Assembly (NCBI GenBank): GCA_016209865.1
Contig: JACQVL010000209.1
Location: 1 to 23,468, forward strand
DNA: 23,468 nt
Direction: 5' to 3'
Source: Candidatus Latescibacterota bacterium
GTDB taxonomy: Bacteria > JAAXHH01 > JACQVL01
Within the stretch, counting starts at the first letter, position 1. Every line of letters begins with the position of its first letter. Below are positions 4,311 to 18,893 of this stretch, piece after piece. The notes beneath the pieces are model-generated. The model did no database searches, was not told the origin of the DNA, and saw only the letters and a program-made list of their open reading frames with translations. Made by a program: the position numbers and the translations under genes.

Positions 4311-4422
4311 AGAAAAGGTCTATTCAAGGTTTTGTTCGGAAAGTTGTACAATAGGTTGTCTCCATCACATTCTTCATCTATCGCCAGAAATGACACCGTG
4401 CAGCATGTGAACGATTGCCTTT

Positions 4423-4440
4423 CTTGTCACTCGTCACTGA
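4423..4440. repeat. TGACNAG heptad repeat, short copy (complement strand)
   Basis: On the minus strand it reads TCAG followed by TGACGAG and TGACAAG, the same family as 1903-1926, 8846-8935 and 23227-23332. It sits immediately upstream of the Shine-Dalgarno sequence of the first aminotransferase gene. Confidence 0.7.
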
Positions 4441-4446
4441 TTGAAC

Positions 4447-4454
4447 AAGGAGGT
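4447..4454 (+). promoter_or_regulatory. Strong ribosome-binding site deciding the start at 4461
   Basis: AAGGAGGT lies 6 nt before the ATG at 4461. It fixes the start of the first Tat aminotransferase and rules out a longer in-frame reading (from 4332) that would begin inside spacer and repeat sequence. Confidence 0.8.
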
Positions 4455-4460
4455 CTCACC

Positions 4461-5807
4461 ATGTCCCCAGTCGAACAGATGATCGAGAGTATCCCGGAGA
4501 GCGCATGGCAGGTCTCACGCCGGTCGTTCATGAAGCGCCTCGTCGGAGGAGTGGCTGCGGCCAGCCTCCTCTCCGGCAGCCGACTCGCGTCCGCTGCCAC
4601 GTTGGCCCCCTTAGCGGAGACCGCAAAGGCCCTGGATGGAAAGGAGATGGGGGATGAACGGTTCTGGGGGCTGGTGAAAGACCAGTTCATCCTGAAAGAG
4701 GGACTGGCCCTGATGAACGCGGCGAACCTCTGTCCATCGCCGTACCCGGTGATGGAGACGGTGTTCAATTTGACACGGGACATCGATCGGGACGCCTCCT
4801 TCCCCAACCGGGCAAAGTTTAGCGAGATGCAGGAGACGACACGGAAGAAGTTAGAGGAGTTGCTCGGCGCGGCGCCGGACACGATCGCCCTCGTCCGGAA
4901 CACGAGCGAAGCGAACAACGTCGTCAGCAGCGGCATCGTCCTCAAGCCCGGCGATGAAGTGGTCTTGTCCGACCTGAACCACCCGTCGAACGGGGTGGCG
5001 TGGGAGGTCAAGGCCAGGCGGTACGGGTTCACGATCAAGAAGGTGCACATCGACGTGCCCCCGAAGAGCCCGGACGACATCATCAAAGCGTTCCGGTCTG
5101 CGCTGACGCCCGCCACCCGGGTTCTCGCCTTCACTCATGTCGCCAGCACCAGCTCCGGCGTGCTGATGCCCGCGAAGGAACTCTGCATGATCGCCCGCGA
5201 GCGCGGAATCTGGGCACACGTCGACGGGGCACAGAGCTTCGGGGCGCTCAACGTGAACCTCACGGACATGGGCTGCGACTCCTACTCCGGGAGCGCGCAC
5301 AAATGGTTCATGGGACCGAAGGAAGTCGGCATCCTGTACGTCCGGAAGGAGCGGGTCGACGCGCTGTGGCCGAGCATCATCAGCGTGCCCTGGCGGGATC
5401 AGATCGTCGGCGCGCGGAAATTCGAGGCGCTCGGTCAGCGGGACGACAGCGCGATCGCGGCGGTTGGCCGGACGGTGGACTTCCACAACATGATCGGGAA
5501 AGCGCGGGTCGAAGCGCGGATGCGAGCGATCGCGACCGCTATCAAGGAGGGGATCACGAAGATTCCAGGCGTGCAACTGTACGCCTCGATGGCCCCGGAG
5601 TTGTCCGCCGGCGTCATCATCTTCAAACCCGGCACGGCGGACCCGCGCAAGGCGTTCACCAAGCTGTACGAGAAATTCCAGATCGCGGGCGCGTCATCGG
5701 GCGGGGAAACCCCCGGCGTCCGGCTGTCGCCCCACATCTACAACACGATGGCAGAAGTCGACCGGGTGCTTGCGGCCGTCTCGGACATCATGAAGAACGG
5801 AGCGTGA
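4461..5807 (+). CDS. Tat-exported class V aminotransferase-fold PLP protein (isopenicillin N epimerase-like), copy 1
   Basis: The 448-residue protein begins with a twin-arginine signal (SRRSFMKR at 19-26, hydrophobic stretch to about residue 47), so it should be exported folded with PLP bound. The class V aminotransferase fold follows: LVRNTSEANN (144-153) in the phosphate-binding region, HVDGAQ (253-258) with Asp255 for the pyridine nitrogen, and the predicted Schiff-base Lys281 in SGSAHKW. The family includes isopenicillin N epimerase, cysteine desulfurases and related lyases; the exact reaction is not predictable. It is followed after 34 nt by a paralogue with the same layout, suggesting a cotranscribed pair or heterodimer. 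A TACAAT at 4347-4352 might be a -10 element but has no convincing -35. Confidence 0.88.
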   Translation: MSPVEQMIESIPESAWQVSRRSFMKRLVGGVAAASLLSGSRLASAATLAPLAETAKALDGKEMGDERFWGLVKDQFILKEGLALMNAANLCPSPYPVMETVFNLTRDIDRDASFPNRAKFSEMQETTRKKLEELLGAAPDTIALVRNTSEANNVVSSGIVLKPGDEVVLSDLNHPSNGVAWEVKARRYGFTIKKVHIDVPPKSPDDIIKAFRSALTPATRVLAFTHVASTSSGVLMPAKELCMIARERGIWAHVDGAQSFGALNVNLTDMGCDSYSGSAHKWFMGPKEVGILYVRKERVDALWPSIISVPWRDQIVGARKFEALGQRDDSAIAAVGRTVDFHNMIGKARVEARMRAIATAIKEGITKIPGVQLYASMAPELSAGVIIFKPGTADPRKAFTKLYEKFQIAGASSGGETPGVRLSPHIYNTMAEVDRVLAAVSDIMKNGA

Positions 5808-5841
5808 AGAAGAGCAGTGAAGAGTGAAGGGAGTGCACAGC

Positions 5842-7236
5842 ATGGAATCGAAAGAAAAACCGGTGTCTGAGCAAACCACGACCCCACCCGCGATGGAAAG
5901 GCGGCGGTTCTTACAGACGATGGGGAGCGCCGTCGGTCTGGCCGCTGCGGCCACGCTGGCCGGGCCAGACGACGTCCTCCGCACGGTCGAAGCCGCCGCC
6001 CAGAGCCTCAGCGGTCTCAGTCCCAAGCAAGCGGCGCGCGAAGAGTCGTTCTGGCTGGGCATCCAGCAGGCGTTTACGATGAGCCGCAGCCTCATCAACC
6101 TGGACAACGCGTGGACCTGCCCCTCGCCGCGGCTCGTCACCGAGGCGGTCGTGCGGTACACCTGGCTGCAGGAGGAAGAACCGGCCCAGCAATGGATCCA
6201 GAAGCTGAGACCACGCCAGGAATCCGTCCGGATCGGCTTGGCCCGGCTGTTCGGCTGCGATCCGGAGGAGATCGCCCTCGTCCGCAACGCCACCGAAGCC
6301 CTCCAGATCGTCCTCTTCGGGATTCCGCTCAAGTCGGGCGATGAAGTCCTGACGACCAGCCTGGATTATGGGTCGATGGTGAGCACCCTGAACTATCGCC
6401 AGCAGCGCGATGGGATCGTCCTGAAACGGATCGACATGCCGACGCCCCCCAAGGCGATGGAGGAGCTGGCCGGGGCGTTCGAGCGCGCCATCACCCCCAA
6501 GACGCGCCTGATCTTAGTGTCGCACATCGCGTACCTGAACGGACAGGTGTTTCCGATCAAGAACATCTGCGACCTGGCTCACCAGCGGGGCATCGAAGTC
6601 GTGGTCGACGGCGCCCATTCGTTCGCCCATCTGGATTTCACCCGGCAGGACCTCGACTGCGACTATTTCGGGACGAGCCTCCACAAGTGGCTGCTCGCCC
6701 CGAAAGGTACGGGCTTGCTCTACGTCCGGAAGGACAAGATCGAAACCATCCCTCCCCTGATGTCTGCGCCGTCGGGCCGGAGGAAGGCCAACATCCGGAA
6801 ATTCGAGCAGGTCGGCACCCATCCAGCGGCCCCGATCTTAGCCATCGCGGAGGCGCTCTCCTTCCACACCGTCATCGGGTCGAAGCGGAAGGAAGAGCGT
6901 TTGCGGTACCTGAAGGATTACTGGGCGGAACGCCTGAGGAAGGTGCCCAACGTCCGGCTGTACACCTCCTTACAGCCGGAGATGAGCTGCGGGATCGCCA
7001 CCGTCGGGGTCGAGGGCGTCCATCCGGTCGCGTTCCGCGACTACCTCTGGGAGCGGCACCGGGTTCAGACCGCCCGGATCGTCAGCGCGGGGATTCAGGG
7101 ACTGCGGGTCTCCCCGAACCTGTACACGACGTTGAACGAACTCGACTACTTCTGCGAGGTCGTCGAAGACGTCGCGAAGAAAGGGCTGCCTGAGCCGCAC
7201 AAGAGCTTCAAGCCCGACGACACGACGACGGGCTGA
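5842..7236 (+). CDS. Tat-exported class V aminotransferase-fold PLP protein (isopenicillin N epimerase-like), copy 2
   Basis: This 464-residue paralogue of the preceding gene has an N-terminal extension, a twin-arginine motif (ERRRFLQTM, 19-27) and a hydrophobic h-region (about 28-41). Shared fold markers: LVRNATEALQ (146-155), DGAH (256-259; His replaces the Gln of copy 1) and predicted PLP lysine Lys282 in TSLHKW. The ATG at 5842 is chosen over the GTG at 5824 because GGGAG lies 8 nt upstream. The ...GIQGLRVSPNLYTT segment near the C-terminus parallels ...GVRLSPHIYNT in copy 1, which supports duplication followed by clear divergence. Contains two of the rare TTA codons not followed by G (both TTA CAG). 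The gene ends facing the minus-strand cluster. Confidence 0.88.
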   Translation: MESKEKPVSEQTTTPPAMERRRFLQTMGSAVGLAAAATLAGPDDVLRTVEAAAQSLSGLSPKQAAREESFWLGIQQAFTMSRSLINLDNAWTCPSPRLVTEAVVRYTWLQEEEPAQQWIQKLRPRQESVRIGLARLFGCDPEEIALVRNATEALQIVLFGIPLKSGDEVLTTSLDYGSMVSTLNYRQQRDGIVLKRIDMPTPPKAMEELAGAFERAITPKTRLILVSHIAYLNGQVFPIKNICDLAHQRGIEVVVDGAHSFAHLDFTRQDLDCDYFGTSLHKWLLAPKGTGLLYVRKDKIETIPPLMSAPSGRRKANIRKFEQVGTHPAAPILAIAEALSFHTVIGSKRKEERLRYLKDYWAERLRKVPNVRLYTSLQPEMSCGIATVGVEGVHPVAFRDYLWERHRVQTARIVSAGIQGLRVSPNLYTTLNELDYFCEVVEDVAKKGLPEPHKSFKPDDTTTG

Positions 7237-7314: not shown

Positions 7315-8808
7315 TTACTTCTCCATGATCGCCTCCGCCGCCCGGCGGCCAGAGACGATCGCGGCCGCCACGCCCCCGCCGGGGAATGTCCAGTGGCCGC
7401 ACAGGTACAGCCCGGCGGTCGAGGTCGTCGGGCCGGGCCGGTACGCGCCGCTCTGCGACGGGATGTTCGCCCAGCCGTACGCCGCGCCGCGATGGTTGAA
7501 CGTGTACCGCTCCATCGTGAGCGGCGTCCCAACCTTGCGGATGAACGCATGCTCGGACAGGCCGGGGATGAGTCGCTCCGCTTTGGCGATCATCCGGCTG
7601 CCGATGGTTTCCTTCAAGTGTTGGTAGCGTTCGACCGCCCGGTACGTCCGGTCACGCGGGTTCTCGCCCGGCGCGCCCCACGCATCGGCCCGGCCGTAGT
7701 CTGCCAGTCCCATCAGGATGACCTGATGCTGGCCGGCCGGCGCCCGGCCGGGGTCGGATTTCGTCGTAACGGTGACGACCATCGACGGGAAGGACGGCTG
7801 GTCGGCGAAGATGTCCTGGTACGCCACCTCGAAATCGTCCGTGTCATGGAACACGCAGGTGTGAAACCCGACGTCGAGGGGCATCTCCACGCCGAGGTGC
7901 ACCTCGACCGCCGACACCGACGGCTGCCACGTCTCCAGCCGGACGCGCCATTCCTCGTCGATGTGCTCCTGGCCGACGAGTTCGAGCCATGTCTGATGCG
8001 GGTCGGCGTTCGACACGACGGCCCGGGCGCGGATCGTCCGGCCGTCTTCGAGCAGGATTCCGGCGACGCTGTGTTGCTCGACGAGGATGTGCGTCACGCG
8101 CGTCTTGGTGACGACCTGTCCCCCCGCCTCCTGGATAGCCGAGGCGATCGCGTCCGACAGGGCTTTCGCGCCGCCCTTCAGGAAGGACGTGCCACCCTGG
8201 GCATGGTAAGTGGCCCATGCCATGGCGAAGTGCGCGGCGGACAGACGGGACGGCGGCAGGCCGTACAGCGGCCACAGGGCGCAGATGAGGGAGTGCAGGC
8301 GGCGGTCCCGCACGTACTCGTCTAACATCGTCTGGGCAGTCTTGTCCGCGTACCGGGCGACGAGGCCGTTCGACTGATCGAGGCCCTCGCGTCCGATCGT
8401 GGCCATGTCCGCACAGACGCGCCGGAGGCCGCCACGGTCGAATGGGAACCGGCTCCCCAGCAATTCGTCGTATTGGCTGGGGTCGGACGGGATGTCGACC
8501 TCGTTCTCTCCAATACGACACCGGTACGCGGGGTCGAGTTTGACGAACTCGAGACGATCCGCGATGCCCAGCCGGCGGAGCGTGTCCCCGATCCAGCTTC
8601 CCGGCCCGCACCCGCCGAGGAGGTGGAGGGTGGAATCGAACATGAACTCTTTGCCGAAGTACTGGACGTACCCGCCGAGTTTGCCGTGCTTCTCGGCGAC
8701 GAGGACGCTCAGTCCGGCCTGCGCGGCCATCGCTCCGCACGTCAGCCCGGCCATCCCGGAGCCGATGATGATGACGTCGTACCTATCCTGTAGAACGGGT
8801 GCTTCCAT
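7315..8808 (-). CDS. FAD-dependent oxidoreductase of the phytoene desaturase / carotenoid isomerase / retinol saturase type
   Basis: The 497-residue protein opens with a dinucleotide-binding motif GSGMAG (16-21) after YDVIII, an acidic residue at the end of strand 2 (Glu39), and GGYVQYFGKEFMFDSTLHLL-type sequence (45-64) typical of CrtISO and RetSat-like enzymes. The C-terminus has the family FAD-binding segment LYLCGHWTFPGGG (about 467-480). The known families isomerise, desaturate or saturate polyenes; no carotenoid genes lie nearby, so the substrate is open. The start at 8808 is chosen because GAGG precedes it by 6 nt; longer starts run into the TGACNAG repeat. It is downstream of the gamma-glutamyltransferase gene on the same strand, separated by a 139-nt inverted-repeat spacer. 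Confidence 0.85.
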   Translation of the reverse strand: MEAPVLQDRYDVIIIGSGMAGLTCGAMAAQAGLSVLVAEKHGKLGGYVQYFGKEFMFDSTLHLLGGCGPGSWIGDTLRRLGIADRLEFVKLDPAYRCRIGENEVDIPSDPSQYDELLGSRFPFDRGGLRRVCADMATIGREGLDQSNGLVARYADKTAQTMLDEYVRDRRLHSLICALWPLYGLPPSRLSAAHFAMAWATYHAQGGTSFLKGGAKALSDAIASAIQEAGGQVVTKTRVTHILVEQHSVAGILLEDGRTIRARAVVSNADPHQTWLELVGQEHIDEEWRVRLETWQPSVSAVEVHLGVEMPLDVGFHTCVFHDTDDFEVAYQDIFADQPSFPSMVVTVTTKSDPGRAPAGQHQVILMGLADYGRADAWGAPGENPRDRTYRAVERYQHLKETIGSRMIAKAERLIPGLSEHAFIRKVGTPLTMERYTFNHRGAAYGWANIPSQSGAYRPGPTTSTAGLYLCGHWTFPGGGVAAAIVSGRRAAEAIMEK

Positions 8809-11458: not shown

Positions 11459-11860
11459 CTATTCATCGTCCTTCGAGACCGGGGCTTTGCTCACGATCTC
11501 TTTCTGGCCGTGGTGGCAGGTGTAACAGGTGACCTGATCGACTTTTTGCTTCTTCATCGCCGTCCGGTTGATGGCGGCGACCTGCTGATTGATGGTATTC
11601 ATCAACTTCAGAAACTCACGACCCGTGAGTTTGGTCGGTTTCTCGTCGCTCGCATAGTCCTTCAGGTTGTGACAGAAGTCGCACTTGACCCCCAGTCCGG
11701 CGGTGAACGTCTTCATATACTCCCGGATTTCCTTCGTCGATTTGCCTTTGAGGACTTGGACGTTCTTCGGTTCACCGACCTGCGCGTGTGCCAGTGCGCT
11801 GGCCATCACCATCCCGGTGACCAGTCCACTCAGCACGAGCGCGTAGCTCAACCGTCTCAT
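11459..11860 (-). CDS. Small periplasmic diheme cytochrome c (photosynthetic reaction-centre cytochrome c-like)
   Basis: The 133-residue protein has a signal peptide (hydrophobic residues 7-24, cleavage probably after AHA at 26) and two haem c attachment sites, CDFCH (60-64) and CYTCH (112-116). The NVQVLKGK...EIREYMKTFTAGLGVKC lead-in is the signature of the small reaction-centre cytochrome c subunit-like family (CytoC_RC) widespread in non-photosynthetic Acidobacteriota and Bacteroidota. It probably carries electrons in the periplasm. Met49 and Met87 are candidate axial ligands. The start at 11860 has AAAGGAG 5 nt upstream; an earlier in-frame ATG at 11890 is rejected because it precedes that site and lies inside an operator-like sequence. 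A strong sigma-70 promoter lies upstream. Confidence 0.85.
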   Translation of the reverse strand: MRRLSYALVLSGLVTGMVMASALAHAQVGEPKNVQVLKGKSTKEIREYMKTFTAGLGVKCDFCHNLKDYASDEKPTKLTGREFLKLMNTINQQVAAINRTAMKKQKVDQVTCYTCHHGQKEIVSKAPVSKDDE

Positions 11861-11879
11861 CGAGGCTCCTTTCTGATGA

Positions 11880-11890
11880 ATGATAATCAT
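11880..11890. promoter_or_regulatory. Fur-box-like palindrome
   Basis: ATGATAATCAT is a 5-1-5 inverted repeat identical to the centre of the Fur consensus (GATAATGATAATCATTATC); its flanks do not match further. It lies in the untranslated leader of the cytochrome c operon, about 24 nt downstream of the predicted -10 element, where a repressor could block transcription. Iron control of a haem protein is plausible but inferred. Confidence 0.4.
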
Positions 11891-13445: not shown

Positions 13446-15428
13446 GTGGATACTGATCTGAGACGTTGCCTGATGAGGTCCCGCTACGCTCTTGTAGCGC
13501 TCTCGTGCATGACGGTCCTGCTTGCCTGCGCGAAGCCGCCGCAAGGCAAGATGATCCCCGCTGAATCGAAGCCCGGCGAATGGCGGCAGTACGGCAACGA
13601 CCTGGCCTTCACCCGGTATTCGCCCCTCGACCAGATCACCCGCGAGAACGCCAAAGACCTGAAAATCGCCTGGCACTGGAAACAGGAAAACTTTGGCGCG
13701 GAGCCGGAGTTCTATGGGCAGACGACGCCGATCTACGTGGACGGCGTGCTCTACGCCACGGCGGGATACCGGCGGGCGGTGGTGGCGATCGACCCGGCCA
13801 CGGGGGAAACCCTGTGGATGTACCGGATGGACGAAGGCGAGCGGGGGGACAAGGCCCCGAGGAAAAATTCGGGCCGGGGGGTGTCGTTCTGGACCGACGG
13901 CCAGGGGGACAATCGGATTTTTGTCGTGACCATCGGGTTCTACCTGGTCGGGCTGAACGCGGAGACCGGCCAGCCGATCCCGTCGTTCGGGAAGAATGGG
14001 GTCGTCGATCTCATGGAAGGACTGCGGGGGCGTGAGAAGGTCGATGTCGTCGGGGCCGTCGGATCGACCTCCCCGCCGACGATCGTGAATGAGGTCATCG
14101 TGGTCGGGCCGTCTCTGGCTCCAGGCTTCCGCCCCAAATCGATGAAGAATGTCCCCGGCGACGTGCGGGGTTTCGATGTCCGCACCGGTAAGCTCCTCTG
14201 GACGTTTCACACCGTTCCCGAGCCGGGTGAACTCGGCAGCGACACCTGGAAGGAGGGTTCGGGAGCCCATACGGGAAACACTGGAGTCTGGACCTCCATC
14301 TCCGCCGACCCTGAACTGGGCTACGTCTACCTACCGGTCGAAGCGCCCACCAACGACTACTACGGCGGACACCGGCCCGGCGACAACCTCTTCGCCAATT
14401 CCCTGGTCTGCCTCGAAGCCAAGACCGGTAAGCGGGTCTGGCACTACCAGATCGTCCACCACGATGTCTGGGATTATGACAATCCCTCCGCGCCCATCTT
14501 AGCGAACCTCACCGTGGATGGGAAGCCGGTCAAGGCGGTCATCCAAAACACCAAGCAGGGCTTTTCGTACGTGTTCGACCGGGTGACCGGCCAGCCGGTC
14601 TGGCCGATCGAGGAGCGCCCGGTGGGGAAGTCCGACGTGCCCGGCGAGCAGACCGCGCCGACGCAACTGTTCCCGACCAACCCTCCGCCGTTCGAGCGCC
14701 AGGGGATCTCGACCGACGACCTGATCGACTTTACCCCGAAGCTGCGAGCTGAGGCGCTGGAGATCGTGAAAAAATACCGGCTTGGCCCGCTGTTTACCCC
14801 GCCGTCATTAGCGCAGGCCCCGGATAGCACGAAAGGCACGATTCAGATCCCGGGGGCGAACGGCGGGGTCAACTGGAATATGACCGCCCTGGACCCCGAA
14901 ACGGGTATCAACTATATCGCCTCGAATACCAGCATTACCCTCATGGCGCTCAAGAAACCAGGGAAGGATGAATCGGACATGAATTATATCTCCGCGACGT
15001 TGCAAGCGCCGCAGGTCCAGGGTCTTCCGCTTGTCAAGCCGCCGTGGGGCCGGATCGTCGCGGTCGACATGAACACGGGGAAACATCTGTGGATGGTGCC
15101 GAACGGGGATGCCTCGGCCAATGTGAAGAATAACCCCGCGTTGAAAGGGGTCACCCTGCCGCGCACGGGCAAGATCACGCGGTTCGGGACGATGGTCACG
15201 AAGACCCTGCTGTTTGCCGGGGAAGGGTTTGGGGGGGATCCGAAGTTCCACGCCTACGATAAGAAGACCGGAGAGATCGTGGCGGAACTCGATCTCCCCG
15301 CTGCTCAGGTCAGTTTGCCGATGACTTACCTGCACAAGGGGAAGCAGTACATCGTCATGTCCGTCGGTGCCGCGAATCACCCGGCGGAACTGGTGGCGTT
15401 CAGTCTGCCTGAAGAGGAGAAAAAATAG
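13446..15428 (+). CDS. PQQ-dependent dehydrogenase lipoprotein (eight-bladed beta-propeller)
   Basis: The 660-residue quinoprotein is of the alcohol/glucose dehydrogenase propeller type. An N-terminal lipoprotein signal ends in LLAC with lipidated Cys28, anchoring it in the periplasm. WRQYGNDLAFTRYSPL (46-61) starts the propeller, and typical propeller-blade segments follow, such as VAIDPATGETLW (113-124), FDVRTGKLLW, LEAKTGKRVW and VDMNTGKHLW. The segment HHDVWDYD (338-345) carries the likely catalytic/metal-site aspartates seen in sugar-type PQQ dehydrogenases. Substrates are probably sugars or alcohols, with electrons passed to a cytochrome or quinone. No haem motif is present, so a separate acceptor is needed, and the last gene of this operon encodes a haem c domain. 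The DUF1080 gene follows after 24 nt. Uses a GTG start. Confidence 0.9.
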   Translation: MDTDLRRCLMRSRYALVALSCMTVLLACAKPPQGKMIPAESKPGEWRQYGNDLAFTRYSPLDQITRENAKDLKIAWHWKQENFGAEPEFYGQTTPIYVDGVLYATAGYRRAVVAIDPATGETLWMYRMDEGERGDKAPRKNSGRGVSFWTDGQGDNRIFVVTIGFYLVGLNAETGQPIPSFGKNGVVDLMEGLRGREKVDVVGAVGSTSPPTIVNEVIVVGPSLAPGFRPKSMKNVPGDVRGFDVRTGKLLWTFHTVPEPGELGSDTWKEGSGAHTGNTGVWTSISADPELGYVYLPVEAPTNDYYGGHRPGDNLFANSLVCLEAKTGKRVWHYQIVHHDVWDYDNPSAPILANLTVDGKPVKAVIQNTKQGFSYVFDRVTGQPVWPIEERPVGKSDVPGEQTAPTQLFPTNPPPFERQGISTDDLIDFTPKLRAEALEIVKKYRLGPLFTPPSLAQAPDSTKGTIQIPGANGGVNWNMTALDPETGINYIASNTSITLMALKKPGKDESDMNYISATLQAPQVQGLPLVKPPWGRIVAVDMNTGKHLWMVPNGDASANVKNNPALKGVTLPRTGKITRFGTMVTKTLLFAGEGFGGDPKFHAYDKKTGEIVAELDLPAAQVSLPMTYLHKGKQYIVMSVGAANHPAELVAFSLPEEEKK

Positions 15429-15452: not shown

Positions 15453-16097
15453 ATGAGACGGACTGTCTGGCTGCTGCTTGCGGCGCTGCTGGTCGCCGGG
15501 GCGATCATGCCGGCGGATGGGATGGCCCAGGCCGCGCCGGCGTCGATGGCCAACACCCTGACCCCGGCTGAGGACGCCGAAGGCTGGAAACTGTTGTTCG
15601 ACGGCAAGACCCTGTTAGGCTGGACCCGGCGCGGGGGCGGCGCGGACTGGAAGGTCGAGGAAGGGGCGATCACCGCCGTGGCCACCGGAGGGCCGAGTTA
15701 TATCGGCACCGCCTATGAATACATCAACTTTCATCTGAAGGCCGATTTCTGGCAGGATGAGGGTCACAACAGCGGGATTTTTCTTCGAGGGCCGAGGGCG
15801 GCCGAAGCGCCCATCAACCAGAAATCTTCCTATGAGATTAACATCTCCGACGAGCACAAGACGTTCCCGACGGGGAGCATCGTCGACCTGCACCGGTTCG
15901 ACCCCGTCCCGAAGACGGCCGGGAAATGGAACACGTATGAGATCATGGCCGAGGGCGATCATCTCGTCGTCAAGCTGAACGGGACGACGACGATTGACCT
16001 CAAAGATGGCACCCATTATAGCGGCATCATCGCCCTGCAGGCGTTTGGCACCGGGAAAGTACGGTTTCGGAACGTCAAGATTCGGCCGCTGAAATGA
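15453..16097 (+). CDS. Secreted DUF1080 (3-keto-disaccharide hydrolase-like) protein
   Basis: The 214-residue protein has a signal peptide (hydrophobic residues 5-19, cleavage near GMAQA at 23-27) and a single DUF1080 concanavalin-like domain (about 44-212) beginning GWKLLFDGKTLLGWTRRG, with W-K-V-E-E-G-A-I and HNSGIFLRGP typical of the family. Some DUF1080 members cleave 3-keto-glycosides, products made by sugar 3-dehydrogenases. Its place 24 nt after a periplasmic PQQ dehydrogenase therefore suggests sequential oxidation and cleavage of a glycoside; that link is inference. AAGGAGG precedes the start with 5-6 nt spacing. The TonB receptor gene starts 16 nt after its stop. Confidence 0.85.
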   Translation: MRRTVWLLLAALLVAGAIMPADGMAQAAPASMANTLTPAEDAEGWKLLFDGKTLLGWTRRGGGADWKVEEGAITAVATGGPSYIGTAYEYINFHLKADFWQDEGHNSGIFLRGPRAAEAPINQKSSYEINISDEHKTFPTGSIVDLHRFDPVPKTAGKWNTYEIMAEGDHLVVKLNGTTTIDLKDGTHYSGIIALQAFGTGKVRFRNVKIRPLK

Positions 16098-16113: not shown

Positions 16114-18321
16114 ATGAAGACCCTCGTCCTTGCGCTGATCTCCCTGTGTGCCGTTGCCCATCTTGCTCTCGCCCAAGAGCGGCAACCGACGCACCAGGAT
16201 TCGTCGAACACCGGCGAGACCCCTCGATTTGAGGTTGAACCCCTCGTCATCACGGCGACCCGGTATGCGCGACCCGTCTATCGCGTCCCGTATGCCGTCG
16301 ACCTGCTCAACCAGGATGACATCCAGCACGCCGAGGTCGGGCTTTCTCTGGAAGAGGCGTTGCGTTCCCTGCCGGGCGTGGTCGTGCAGAACCGGTACAA
16401 CCTCTCCCAGGGGGATCGCATCAGCCTGCGGGGGATCGGGAGTCGGGCGGCCTTCGGGGTGCGAGGGCTGAAGCTCATCCAGGACGGGATTCCCCTGACG
16501 ATGGCGGACGGCCAGTCCCAACTGAACAACATCGACCTGGGGTCGGCCGGGCAGGTCGAAGTGCTGCGCGGGCCGAGTTCTTCGCTGTACGGCAACGCGG
16601 CCGGCGGCCTGATCAGCCTGCAGACGCAGACCGCCGTCGCCACCCCGTTCCAACTGCAACCCCGCCTGCTGGTCGGCGCCGATGGCTTGCGGAAATGGGA
16701 AGGGAAAGCCTCCGGCCAGGTCGGCCGCCATCAGTATCTCGTCAACGTCAATTCGCTGTGGCAGGAGGGCTACCGCGATTTCGCCAACGCTCGTTCCACC
16801 GGGGTCAACGCGGTCGGACACCACGTCCTGTCTCAGTCACTCAGCCTGACGACGGTGCTGAACGCTTACAATGCGCCCTACCTGCTGAACCCCAGTTCGC
16901 TGGCGAAAGCCGAGGCCGACACCGCGCCGACGAACGCGCGTCTGGCGGTGCAACGGCAGGGCGCCAGCAAGAAAACCAACCAGACCCAGGGCGGGATCAC
17001 CCTCCAGTACCGGGGGCGCGACAGCACCCGCCTGGAAGCCACTGTCTACGGTCTGGGCCGGTCGCTGTTCAACCCCATTCCGGGCCGGATTATCGACCTG
17101 GATCGCAAGGCCGGAGGACTGCGGACGGTGTGGAGCCGATCCGCTCAGGTCGCGGGATCGACGCTCCGGTGGACTGCCGGGGCCGATGTCGAGGTCCAGC
17201 GCGACGCCCGGCAGGAGTTTGGGAACGGGGGCATCCCCGCTCAGCACGTCGGGAAAGTCCACGACGACGCCATCTTCAAGCTCCTCACGTACGGCCCGCG
17301 TCTGCTCGATCAGGCGGAACGGGTGCTGGGCGTCGGTCCCTTCGTCGAACTGGAACTGACGCCATACCCCGCCTGGGTGATCACCGTAGGAGGCCGGTAT
17401 GACCGCTACCGATTCACCGTCGACGATCGGTTTCTGGATGACGGGGTAGACGATTCCGGGACGCGCACGATGGACCAGGTCAGTCCGATGGTGGGTCTGA
17501 CTTACCGTCCCCATCGGTTCATCAGCCTGTACGGGAACTATGCCACGGCGTTTCAGACCCCGACCACGACCGAATTGAGCAACCGGCCGACCAGAGAAGG
17601 CGGGTTCAACCCCGACCTGCGGCCGGAACGGGTACGCAGCGTCGAGGCGGGTCTCAAGGGCCTGTGGCCGGCACGACAGTTCACCTGGGATGCCGCGTTC
17701 TATTTCCTGACGATCGATGAGATGCTCATCCCGTTTCAAATCGACGATCCCAGCACCGAGGAGGTCTTCTTCCGGAACGCGGGCAAGACCCGGAACAGAG
17801 GGATCGAACTCAGGCTCACCTGGGCTCCGACGCCCGGATGGCGGGCTTCGTTCGCCTATACCCTGATGGATTTCATCTTTCAGGATTTTCTGGTCGAGAC
17901 GTCCGTCAATAACCGGCTGACCCGGTCTCAGCTCAAAGGAAACGACGTGCCGGGCGTTCCCCCGCAGCATCTGTACGCCGGGGTGATGTATAAGCACCGT
18001 CGCGGCGGATACGCCGAAGCCAACCTGCAGTGGATGGATCGTTATTTTGCCAACGATTTCAACGGACCGGGGCCGGGCAGCACGAAACCCGTCCGGGATT
18101 TCATCAATGACGCGTACCTGACGGTTGACCTGCGTCTGGGGGGCCAGCGCGACCTGGGATGGGTTGGGATCGACGTGTTTGTCGGGGTCAACAACCTGTT
18201 CAATACCCGGTATAACGGGTCGATCGTGCCCAATGCGGCGGGGGATCGGTTCTTCGAGCCGGCCGCCGGCCGCACCTGGTATACGGGCGTGGGGATTCCC
18301 GTTCCCCACGGGAGGCGTTGA
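16114..18321 (+). CDS. TonB-dependent outer-membrane receptor
   Basis: The 735-residue receptor has a signal peptide (1-20, cleavage ALA|Q), a TonB-box-like EPLVITATR (42-50), a plug domain (about 52-165, with LRSLPGVVVQNR, RISLRGIGSR and VEVLRGPSSSLYGNAAGG) and a 22-strand-type barrel to the C-terminus. It imports an energised ligand across the outer membrane; siderophores, cofactors and glycans are all possible. Within this operon a sugar, or PQQ itself, would make sense. Oddity: the protein ends ...GVGIPVPHGRR and not in an aromatic residue, so the usual terminal Phe/Trp BAM signal is missing or internal. The ribosome-binding site is weak (GATGAG just upstream), which may mean translational coupling. 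The next gene begins 2 nt after its stop. Confidence 0.9.
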   Translation: MKTLVLALISLCAVAHLALAQERQPTHQDSSNTGETPRFEVEPLVITATRYARPVYRVPYAVDLLNQDDIQHAEVGLSLEEALRSLPGVVVQNRYNLSQGDRISLRGIGSRAAFGVRGLKLIQDGIPLTMADGQSQLNNIDLGSAGQVEVLRGPSSSLYGNAAGGLISLQTQTAVATPFQLQPRLLVGADGLRKWEGKASGQVGRHQYLVNVNSLWQEGYRDFANARSTGVNAVGHHVLSQSLSLTTVLNAYNAPYLLNPSSLAKAEADTAPTNARLAVQRQGASKKTNQTQGGITLQYRGRDSTRLEATVYGLGRSLFNPIPGRIIDLDRKAGGLRTVWSRSAQVAGSTLRWTAGADVEVQRDARQEFGNGGIPAQHVGKVHDDAIFKLLTYGPRLLDQAERVLGVGPFVELELTPYPAWVITVGGRYDRYRFTVDDRFLDDGVDDSGTRTMDQVSPMVGLTYRPHRFISLYGNYATAFQTPTTTELSNRPTREGGFNPDLRPERVRSVEAGLKGLWPARQFTWDAAFYFLTIDEMLIPFQIDDPSTEEVFFRNAGKTRNRGIELRLTWAPTPGWRASFAYTLMDFIFQDFLVETSVNNRLTRSQLKGNDVPGVPPQHLYAGVMYKHRRGGYAEANLQWMDRYFANDFNGPGPGSTKPVRDFINDAYLTVDLRLGGQRDLGWVGIDVFVGVNNLFNTRYNGSIVPNAAGDRFFEPAAGRTWYTGVGIPVPHGRR

Positions 18322-18323
18322 CG

Positions 18324-18866
18324 ATGGCCCGGTCGCACGACCCGCCGAATTACATGGGTGTGTTCTACTCGTTAGCCGTGCTCACCGGGCTTGAGATCGG
18401 GGTGACGTTCCTCCCCATCCCGACCCTGCTCAGCCGGATTCTGCTGGTCGGCCTGGCCGCCACCAAGGCGGCGCTGGTGGCCCTGTATTTCATGCATCTG
18501 AAGTTTGAGCGGAGGACCCTCACCTGGATTGCCTTGACACCGGGGTTGATCTGTACGTTCTTAGTGCTGATGCTCCTCCCGGATAGTGTGGCCATCACAC
18601 GGCGTCCAGGATCGTTCGCGGCCGCGCAGGAGACGCTGCCGCCCGTTGAACTCATCACAGGCCCTGGCGTTGACGTCGTGAAAAGAAACTGTACCCGCTG
18701 TCATCCGGTGAACATCATCGCCCAGACGAGGAAGGATCGGGCCGGGTGGCTGGAATCCATCCGATGGCTGCAGCAAGAAAAAGGCCTTCGGCGGTTTGAT
18801 CAAAAAACAGAAGAGACAATTTTAGATTACTTATCGACGTATTATGCGCCGGAATCGTCGCAGTAG
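18324..18866 (+). CDS. Cytochrome oxidase subunit IV-like membrane protein fused to a haem c domain
   Basis: The 180-residue protein has three hydrophobic segments (about 12-30, 38-58, 67-88). The sequence LVALYFMHLKFERR (51-64) is the hallmark of bacterial cytochrome c oxidase subunit IV (CtaF/COX4_pro). A linker leads to a haem c site CTRCH (123-127) and a helical C-terminal tail. Basic residues after segment 2 put that loop in the cytoplasm, so the haem domain would lie in the periplasm. No other oxidase subunits are nearby; it lies 2 nt after the TonB receptor in the PQQ operon and may be the electron acceptor for the dehydrogenase. Oddity: no Met or His follows CTRCH, so the usual sixth haem ligand is missing. 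GGAGG 8 nt upstream supports the ATG. The stop codon lies within a large palindrome. Confidence 0.8.
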   Translation: MARSHDPPNYMGVFYSLAVLTGLEIGVTFLPIPTLLSRILLVGLAATKAALVALYFMHLKFERRTLTWIALTPGLICTFLVLMLLPDSVAITRRPGSFAAAQETLPPVELITGPGVDVVKRNCTRCHPVNIIAQTRKDRAGWLESIRWLQQEKGLRRFDQKTEETILDYLSTYYAPESSQ

Positions 18867-18893
18867 GGGCGCAGCATGCTGCGCCCCTACTGC
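18860..18893. repeat. Perfect 34-nt palindrome, possible terminator
   Basis: Both 17-nt arms match perfectly around the centre GCATGC (GCAGTAGGGGCG... mirrored by ...CGCCCCTACTGC). The TAG stop codon of the oxidase-IV/cytochrome fusion (18864-18866) lies inside the left arm. As RNA it would form a very stable hairpin at the operon end, but no U-tract follows. Its form resembles dispersed palindromic repeats more than a dedicated terminator. Confidence 0.8.

Follow-up and report, generated by a model that had tools for sequence, protein, structure and literature searches.

The final gene of a PQQ dehydrogenase operon in a Candidatus Latescibacterota bacterium joins a module of the oxidase subunit IV (COX4) family to a single-haem cytochrome c domain. 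In our judgement, this protein is probably the membrane-tethered haem c partner of the operon's PQQ dehydrogenase, in which subunit IV would have been repurposed as a membrane anchor. The stretch analysed here, the window, covers 23,468 nucleotides (positions 1 to 23,468 of the forward strand of contig JACQVL010000209.1). The source assembly has 356 contigs and is 83% complete, and the comparison set consisted of 16 genomes of one order, that is, the source genome and 15 relatives.

The fusion gene and its operon

The features discussed below are these (window coordinates, strand, feature):

13470..15428, +, PQQ-dependent dehydrogenase (PF01011, E 1e-194), predicted lipoprotein from the LLAC lipobox at its N terminus
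15453..16097, +, exported protein of the 3-keto-disaccharide hydrolase family (PF06439, E 1.1e-37)
16114..18321, +, TonB-dependent receptor, PqqU by the published signature (F99, R304, R365), with NF041535 as best NCBIfam match
18311..18315, +, ribosome-binding site GGAGG, within the 3′ end of the TonB receptor gene
18324..18866, +, COX4–haem c fusion gene (ORF, ATG, GGAGG, Pfam and NCBIfam matches to two families)
18324..18599, +, subunit IV (COX4_pro) module, residues 1-92, three transmembrane helices (PF03626, conserved columns, structural matches)
18600..18644, +, linker, residues 93-107 (AlphaFold pLDDT about 55)
18645..18845, +, single-haem cytochrome c domain, residues 108-174 (identity to relatives' operon cytochromes, SorB structure match)
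18690..18704, +, CTRCH haem-attachment motif, residues 123-127 (from sequence)
18768..18770, +, Leu149 (CTG), at the position of the presumed distal haem ligand, Met in all compared homologues (alignments)

The ORF at 18324-18866 on the forward strand is real: it encodes 180 amino acids in an intact frame from an ATG start. Because this start lies 2 nt past the stop of the TonB receptor gene and a GGAGG site precedes it by 8 nt, the fusion is probably translated within the TonB receptor operon. It closes a tight operon behind the genes for the PQQ dehydrogenase, which has no haem domain of its own, the 3-keto-disaccharide hydrolase and the PqqU-type receptor; an earlier reading of the window, made from the sequence only, had rightly placed it in a dehydrogenase operon.

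The receptor scores 320.6 bits against the PqqU model NF041535 and does not reach the cut-off of 1200. The published PqqU signature, Y, F or W at position 99 with R304 and R365 in E. coli numbering (PMC12124388), occurs as F, R and R in the window receptor and in three relatives. PqqE above the cut-off was found in none of the 16 genomes of the order, and also in none of 14 control genomes, so that this cut-off may be insensitive here. The receptor signature and the lack of PqqE above the cut-off in the order together suggest PQQ scavenging, and the operon conserved in the order is probably a PQQ-scavenging operon. As for the substrate, LacABC and DUF1080 proteins in Caulobacter provide a glycoside precedent (PMC9007349), and the 3-keto-sugar hydrolase in the operon likewise suggests a glycoside. 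Elsewhere in the window, positions 4332-7236 encode two tandem class V aminotransferase-like proteins with apparent Tat-type signals (RRSFMKRL and RRRFLQTM). A small gene at 11459-11890 (reverse strand), divergent from an M50 protease gene, matches NF033196, a non-photosynthetic relative of reaction-centre cytochrome c, and has two CxxCH-like sites.

A cytochrome matching residues 106-177 of the fusion is present in 14 of the 15 relatives, with 48-59% identity over the whole match. Eight such loci were opened; in seven, it directly follows a TonB receptor 57-63% identical to that of the window, with a hydrolase (52-57%) and a PQQ dehydrogenase (61-62%) upstream where the contig allows. The order PQQ dehydrogenase–hydrolase–TonB receptor–cytochrome was confirmed at five loci (L116, L117, L118, L120 and L121) and partly at two (L115 and L122), where the contig begins within the operon and does not include the dehydrogenase. 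At the eighth (L119, genome G011), the cytochrome has no other operon genes within 9 kb. The opened relatives' cytochromes have one N-terminal transmembrane helix, as in MNRFMRVLGQIAFVIVLDAIVIGVIYY, and no COX4. Because the same-operon cytochrome of the relatives is anchored by one helix, comparison indicates that the anchor was exchanged, one helix being replaced by three-helix subunit IV. The repurposed membrane anchor proposed in the sequence-only reading is thus supported by the relatives.

Identity and origin of the two halves

The N-terminal half matches COX4_pro (PF03626) over residues 12-81 (E 1.3e-12; 48.4 bits, cut-off 28.9) and has three hydrophobic helices (12-30, 39-57 and 66-84), which bears out the earlier claim of a COX4-type three-helix module; a missing profile match would have spoken against it. 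Against TIGR02229 (caa3 subunit IV) the fusion scores 34.9 bits, just below the cut-off of 37.25, and an unfused subunit IV from an oxidase operon (locus L009), used as a control, reaches only 37.4. The loop between helices 2 and 3 (residues 60-65) is positively charged and compatible with an N-in/C-out orientation, for which E. coli CyoD served as the reference. The AlphaFold model, three long helices and a small helical domain, agrees with the hydrophobicity. A Foldseek search with the whole fusion model gave no significant match. VIA-align on the Foldseek list placed CyoD chains and SorB amid many helical bundles of similar Z, so we regard these matches as supportive; the CyoD chains of bo3 oxidase match residues 5-59 with Z up to 7.0, which is not distinctive. 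All 22 subunit IV columns with at least 90% conservation in 37 canonical sequences are kept in the fusion, a count biased in its ALYFMHLK part, which had served as the search pattern.

From where might this module have come? When 84,980 species were scanned, each represented by one genome, 80 related COX4 loci were returned, of which the best, 50-67% identical, belong to Calditrichota, Poribacteria, Methylomirabilota, Tectomicrobia and records titled Deltaproteobacteria. The genes at loci L006, L007, L009 and L023 lie in operons of the form COX2-COX1-(CtaA-CtaB)-COX3-COX3-COX4, with CtaA-CtaB placed after COX4 at L006, and L013 has the same order as far as its contig reaches. The order's own subunit IV, located in its oxidase operon, shares only about 34% identity with the fusion's COX4 half. 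In the tree, the fusion falls among oxidase-operon subunits IV of other phyla, with no firm nearest neighbour, and the order's subunit IV stands apart on a branch of length 2.44. By these comparisons, the COX4 half is to be placed with the oxidase-operon subunit IV of other phyla and not with that of its own order.

The fusion is the sole COX4_pro match in its genome, and the combination with haem c was seen in this single genome. None of the 80 related COX4 loci has a CxxCH motif in the COX4 frame, no plasmid record covering 80% of the fusion query was found, and we found no description of a COX4–cytochrome c fusion in the open-access literature. It appears to be a rare variant built from known modules. 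A canonical subunit IV without such a fusion, which would tell against the sequence-only reading if found with a complete oxidase operon, is indeed the state in the relatives; the complete oxidase operon was not found in the source genome.

The C-terminal half matches family models weakly when checked against cytochrome c families (SorB NF052246: E 1e-4, 22.2 bits, below the cut-off of 93; Pfam Dehyd-heme_bind: 0.028), and it is 48-61% identical over 54-70 residues to its counterparts from operons of this type in related species. The CTRCH haem c extension described earlier is thus a SorB-type domain (residues ~108-174). In a search of solved structures, SorB of Starkeya was the best relative by sequence (E 0.32), and its chain 2blf_B matches the haem domain structurally (Z 6.4, rmsd 2.5, 64 residues). 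Matches of the haem domain alone to the QHNDH haem domains 1jmx_A and 1jju_A (TMq 0.62-0.63, E about 1 or worse) were not significant. For all five of the plasmid homologues opened (Pontibacter, Vibrio, Nitratireductor, Spirosoma and Leisingera), the gene immediately upstream encodes a sulfite oxidase or molybdopterin oxidoreductase. This gene order, together with the SorB match in sequence and structure, indicates that the haem half belongs to a class that takes electrons from the adjoining dehydrogenase.

The missing oxidase and the altered haem site

Could the COX4 half still be a working subunit IV? In such a case, it would sit in a haem-copper oxidase like those of Calditrichota, Poribacteria, Methylomirabilota and Tectomicrobia, and the attached haem would feed electrons from the PQQ dehydrogenase into the oxidase. 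The full set of strongly conserved residues and the complete oxidase operons around the nearest unfused relatives favour this idea, as do two relatives of the order (G011 and G013) that encode COX1 and COX2 belonging to this type. A further parallel is COX operon type a-II, in which COX1-COX4 fusions often occur with PQQ dehydrogenases (PMC4013037): there, too, subunit IV is a fused part and a PQQ dehydrogenase is near oxidase genes, but its COX4 is joined to the catalytic subunit, whereas that of the window is joined to cytochrome c. Against the idea, COX1 above the cut-off, COX3 and CtaA (haem A synthase) were all missing from the 83%-complete source genome, whereas all 15 relatives have the three. 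The lack of other oxidase genes noted in the sequence-only reading therefore holds beyond the window for the whole assembly; because of the assembly's incompleteness, we treat it as suggestive. As about 820 kb separate CtaA and the oxidase operon in relative G002, we estimate that 17% incompleteness would remove both by chance in about 3% of cases, if the losses are independent. Moreover, the G013 operon of this type has a DUF420-like gene at the COX4 position. We therefore consider a working subunit IV unlikely. The docking to an oxidase encoded elsewhere, as suggested earlier, may occur: it accords with the conserved COX4 residues, but no COX1, COX3 or haem A synthase was found to support it.

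Several candidates and clusters were seen during the oxidase search. A weak COX1 match on contig C16 proved to be a different multi-helix membrane protein, NnrS-like in looks, and the COX2-like matches were a small CuA-like lipoprotein (C53) and an apparent nitrous oxide reductase (C179). The former (7466-7843, numbered in L183) stands alone, contains a CuA-like motif (CSNFCGIGHLAM) and has no transmembrane hairpin. Contig C193 (L197, 4835-7849) encodes a Rieske protein, cytochrome b and a CydA-like protein that carries a haem c domain (Cytochrome_CBB3) at its C terminus, and a further membrane protein is encoded close by; this may be a bd-like oxidase cluster in a genome without a detectable haem-copper oxidase. 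In G013, contig C274 (L182, 497-2488) carries an oxidase operon with two COX3 genes, in which the DUF420-like multi-helix gene replaces COX4.

A different doubt concerns the haem half. In SorU, a cytochrome of the SorB kind, the haem is ligated by His and Met (PMC4760952). The Met of the motif RWMQ, which aligns with the SorB Met and would be the ligand of the haem iron, is kept in every aligned homologue (the aligned relatives of the order, two distant homologues, the five plasmid homologues and SorB), and in the fusion its place is taken by Leu149. The fusion's haem domain contains no Met elsewhere, and His127 of CTRCH is its only His. Ordinary His/Met electron-transfer chemistry is therefore doubtful, and, barring an assembly error at the Leu149 base, the haem would lack normal His/Met ligation. 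The lost Met argues for a changed haem role or a drifting gene. The haem half might thus be no normal carrier: its haem could be five-coordinate or take Lys, water, NO or CO as a ligand, and the domain could serve sensing or ligand binding or be in decay. A fall in third-position GC over the last ~40 codons, absent in the relatives, also fits this explanation. However, the frame is intact, and CTRCH, the domain Trp and the rest of the domain are kept at about the identity of the operon proteins; in addition, a single nucleotide change, A to C, suffices for Leu149, so that a consensus error is possible. Altogether, we regard a haem half turned to sensing or ligand binding, or in decay, as rather improbable.

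The end of the gene shows some further peculiarities. Third-position GC is 0.25-0.55 at 18744-18866 against about 0.8 in neighbouring genes, the lowest stretch among correctly framed genes of the window, and the protein remains conserved there. A perfect 32-base palindrome at 18861-18892, CAGTAGGGGCGCAGC/GCTGCGCCCCTACTG around AT, overlaps the fusion's stop codon and has no other copy in the window; it looks as if an element had been inserted at the end of the gene. The protein ends in YYAPESSQ, compared with YYGK or YYGR in relatives.

Finally, although a fusion known from one genome, in 356 contigs at 83% completeness and with no second genome of its family in the comparison set, could have been joined from unrelated genes during metagenome assembly, such an artefact is most improbable, because the start has a ribosome site and a position that suggests coupling to the TonB gene, the frame is continuous, the haem half sits at the usual place of the operon cytochrome, and a chimera would require an in-frame COX4 insertion with two breakpoints about 300 bp apart.

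Proposed role and relation to known systems

We therefore return to the repurposed anchor. The ancestral cytochrome would have had a single N-terminal transmembrane helix; by comparison with the relatives, the source lineage has exchanged it for a whole oxidase subunit IV with its three helices. The new anchor would leave the orientation of the ancestor unchanged, with the N terminus on the inner side and a periplasmic haem. The PqqU-type receptor would import PQQ, which would load the dehydrogenase lipoprotein; this enzyme may oxidise a sugar-like substrate in the periplasm, and electrons would pass to the fusion haem at the membrane surface and from there into the membrane chain. Against this explanation stand Leu149 with no substitute ligand, the occurrence of the fusion in one genome and the partnership with the dehydrogenase, which rests on gene order, given that the G011 cytochrome stands alone. 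More speculatively, and with rather low confidence, we can imagine that subunit IV was captured by a PQQ dehydrogenase operon in a lineage that has lost its haem-copper oxidase, and now forms the base, within the membrane, of a dehydrogenase complex whose c haem is unusual and Met-free.

The fusion resembles, and departs from, three known kinds of protein. First, it shares the three-helix module, the strongly conserved residues and a significant profile match with COX4_pro (PF03626; CtaF/CyoD), but differs in its haem c domain, its dehydrogenase operon and a genome without detected oxidase core genes. Second, like the SorB/SorU cytochromes (NF052246; PDB 2blf), it has a single haem, a similar predicted fold and homologues encoded behind a dehydrogenase; in contrast, its putative partner is a PQQ dehydrogenase, it is membrane anchored, it has Leu for the distal Met, and it scores 22 against 93 bits. 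Third, it shares its operon position and a haem half 48-61% identical with the one-helix cytochrome that the order encodes in its PQQ dehydrogenase–PqqU operon, but it has COX4 for the single transmembrane helix and has lost the Met.

Oxidase subunit IV carries no cofactor, and little is known of what it does. The exchange of a plain anchor for COX4 in a conserved operon amounts to an evolutionary before-and-after experiment, which raises the question of whether subunit IV is a mere membrane module or a docking part that brings the haem of a dehydrogenase to an oxidase. A PQQ receptor beside a PQQ dehydrogenase, with no PQQ synthesis found, may be a compact way of living on scavenged PQQ, and the fusion could link this presumably sugar- or alcohol-oxidising enzyme directly to the respiratory chain.
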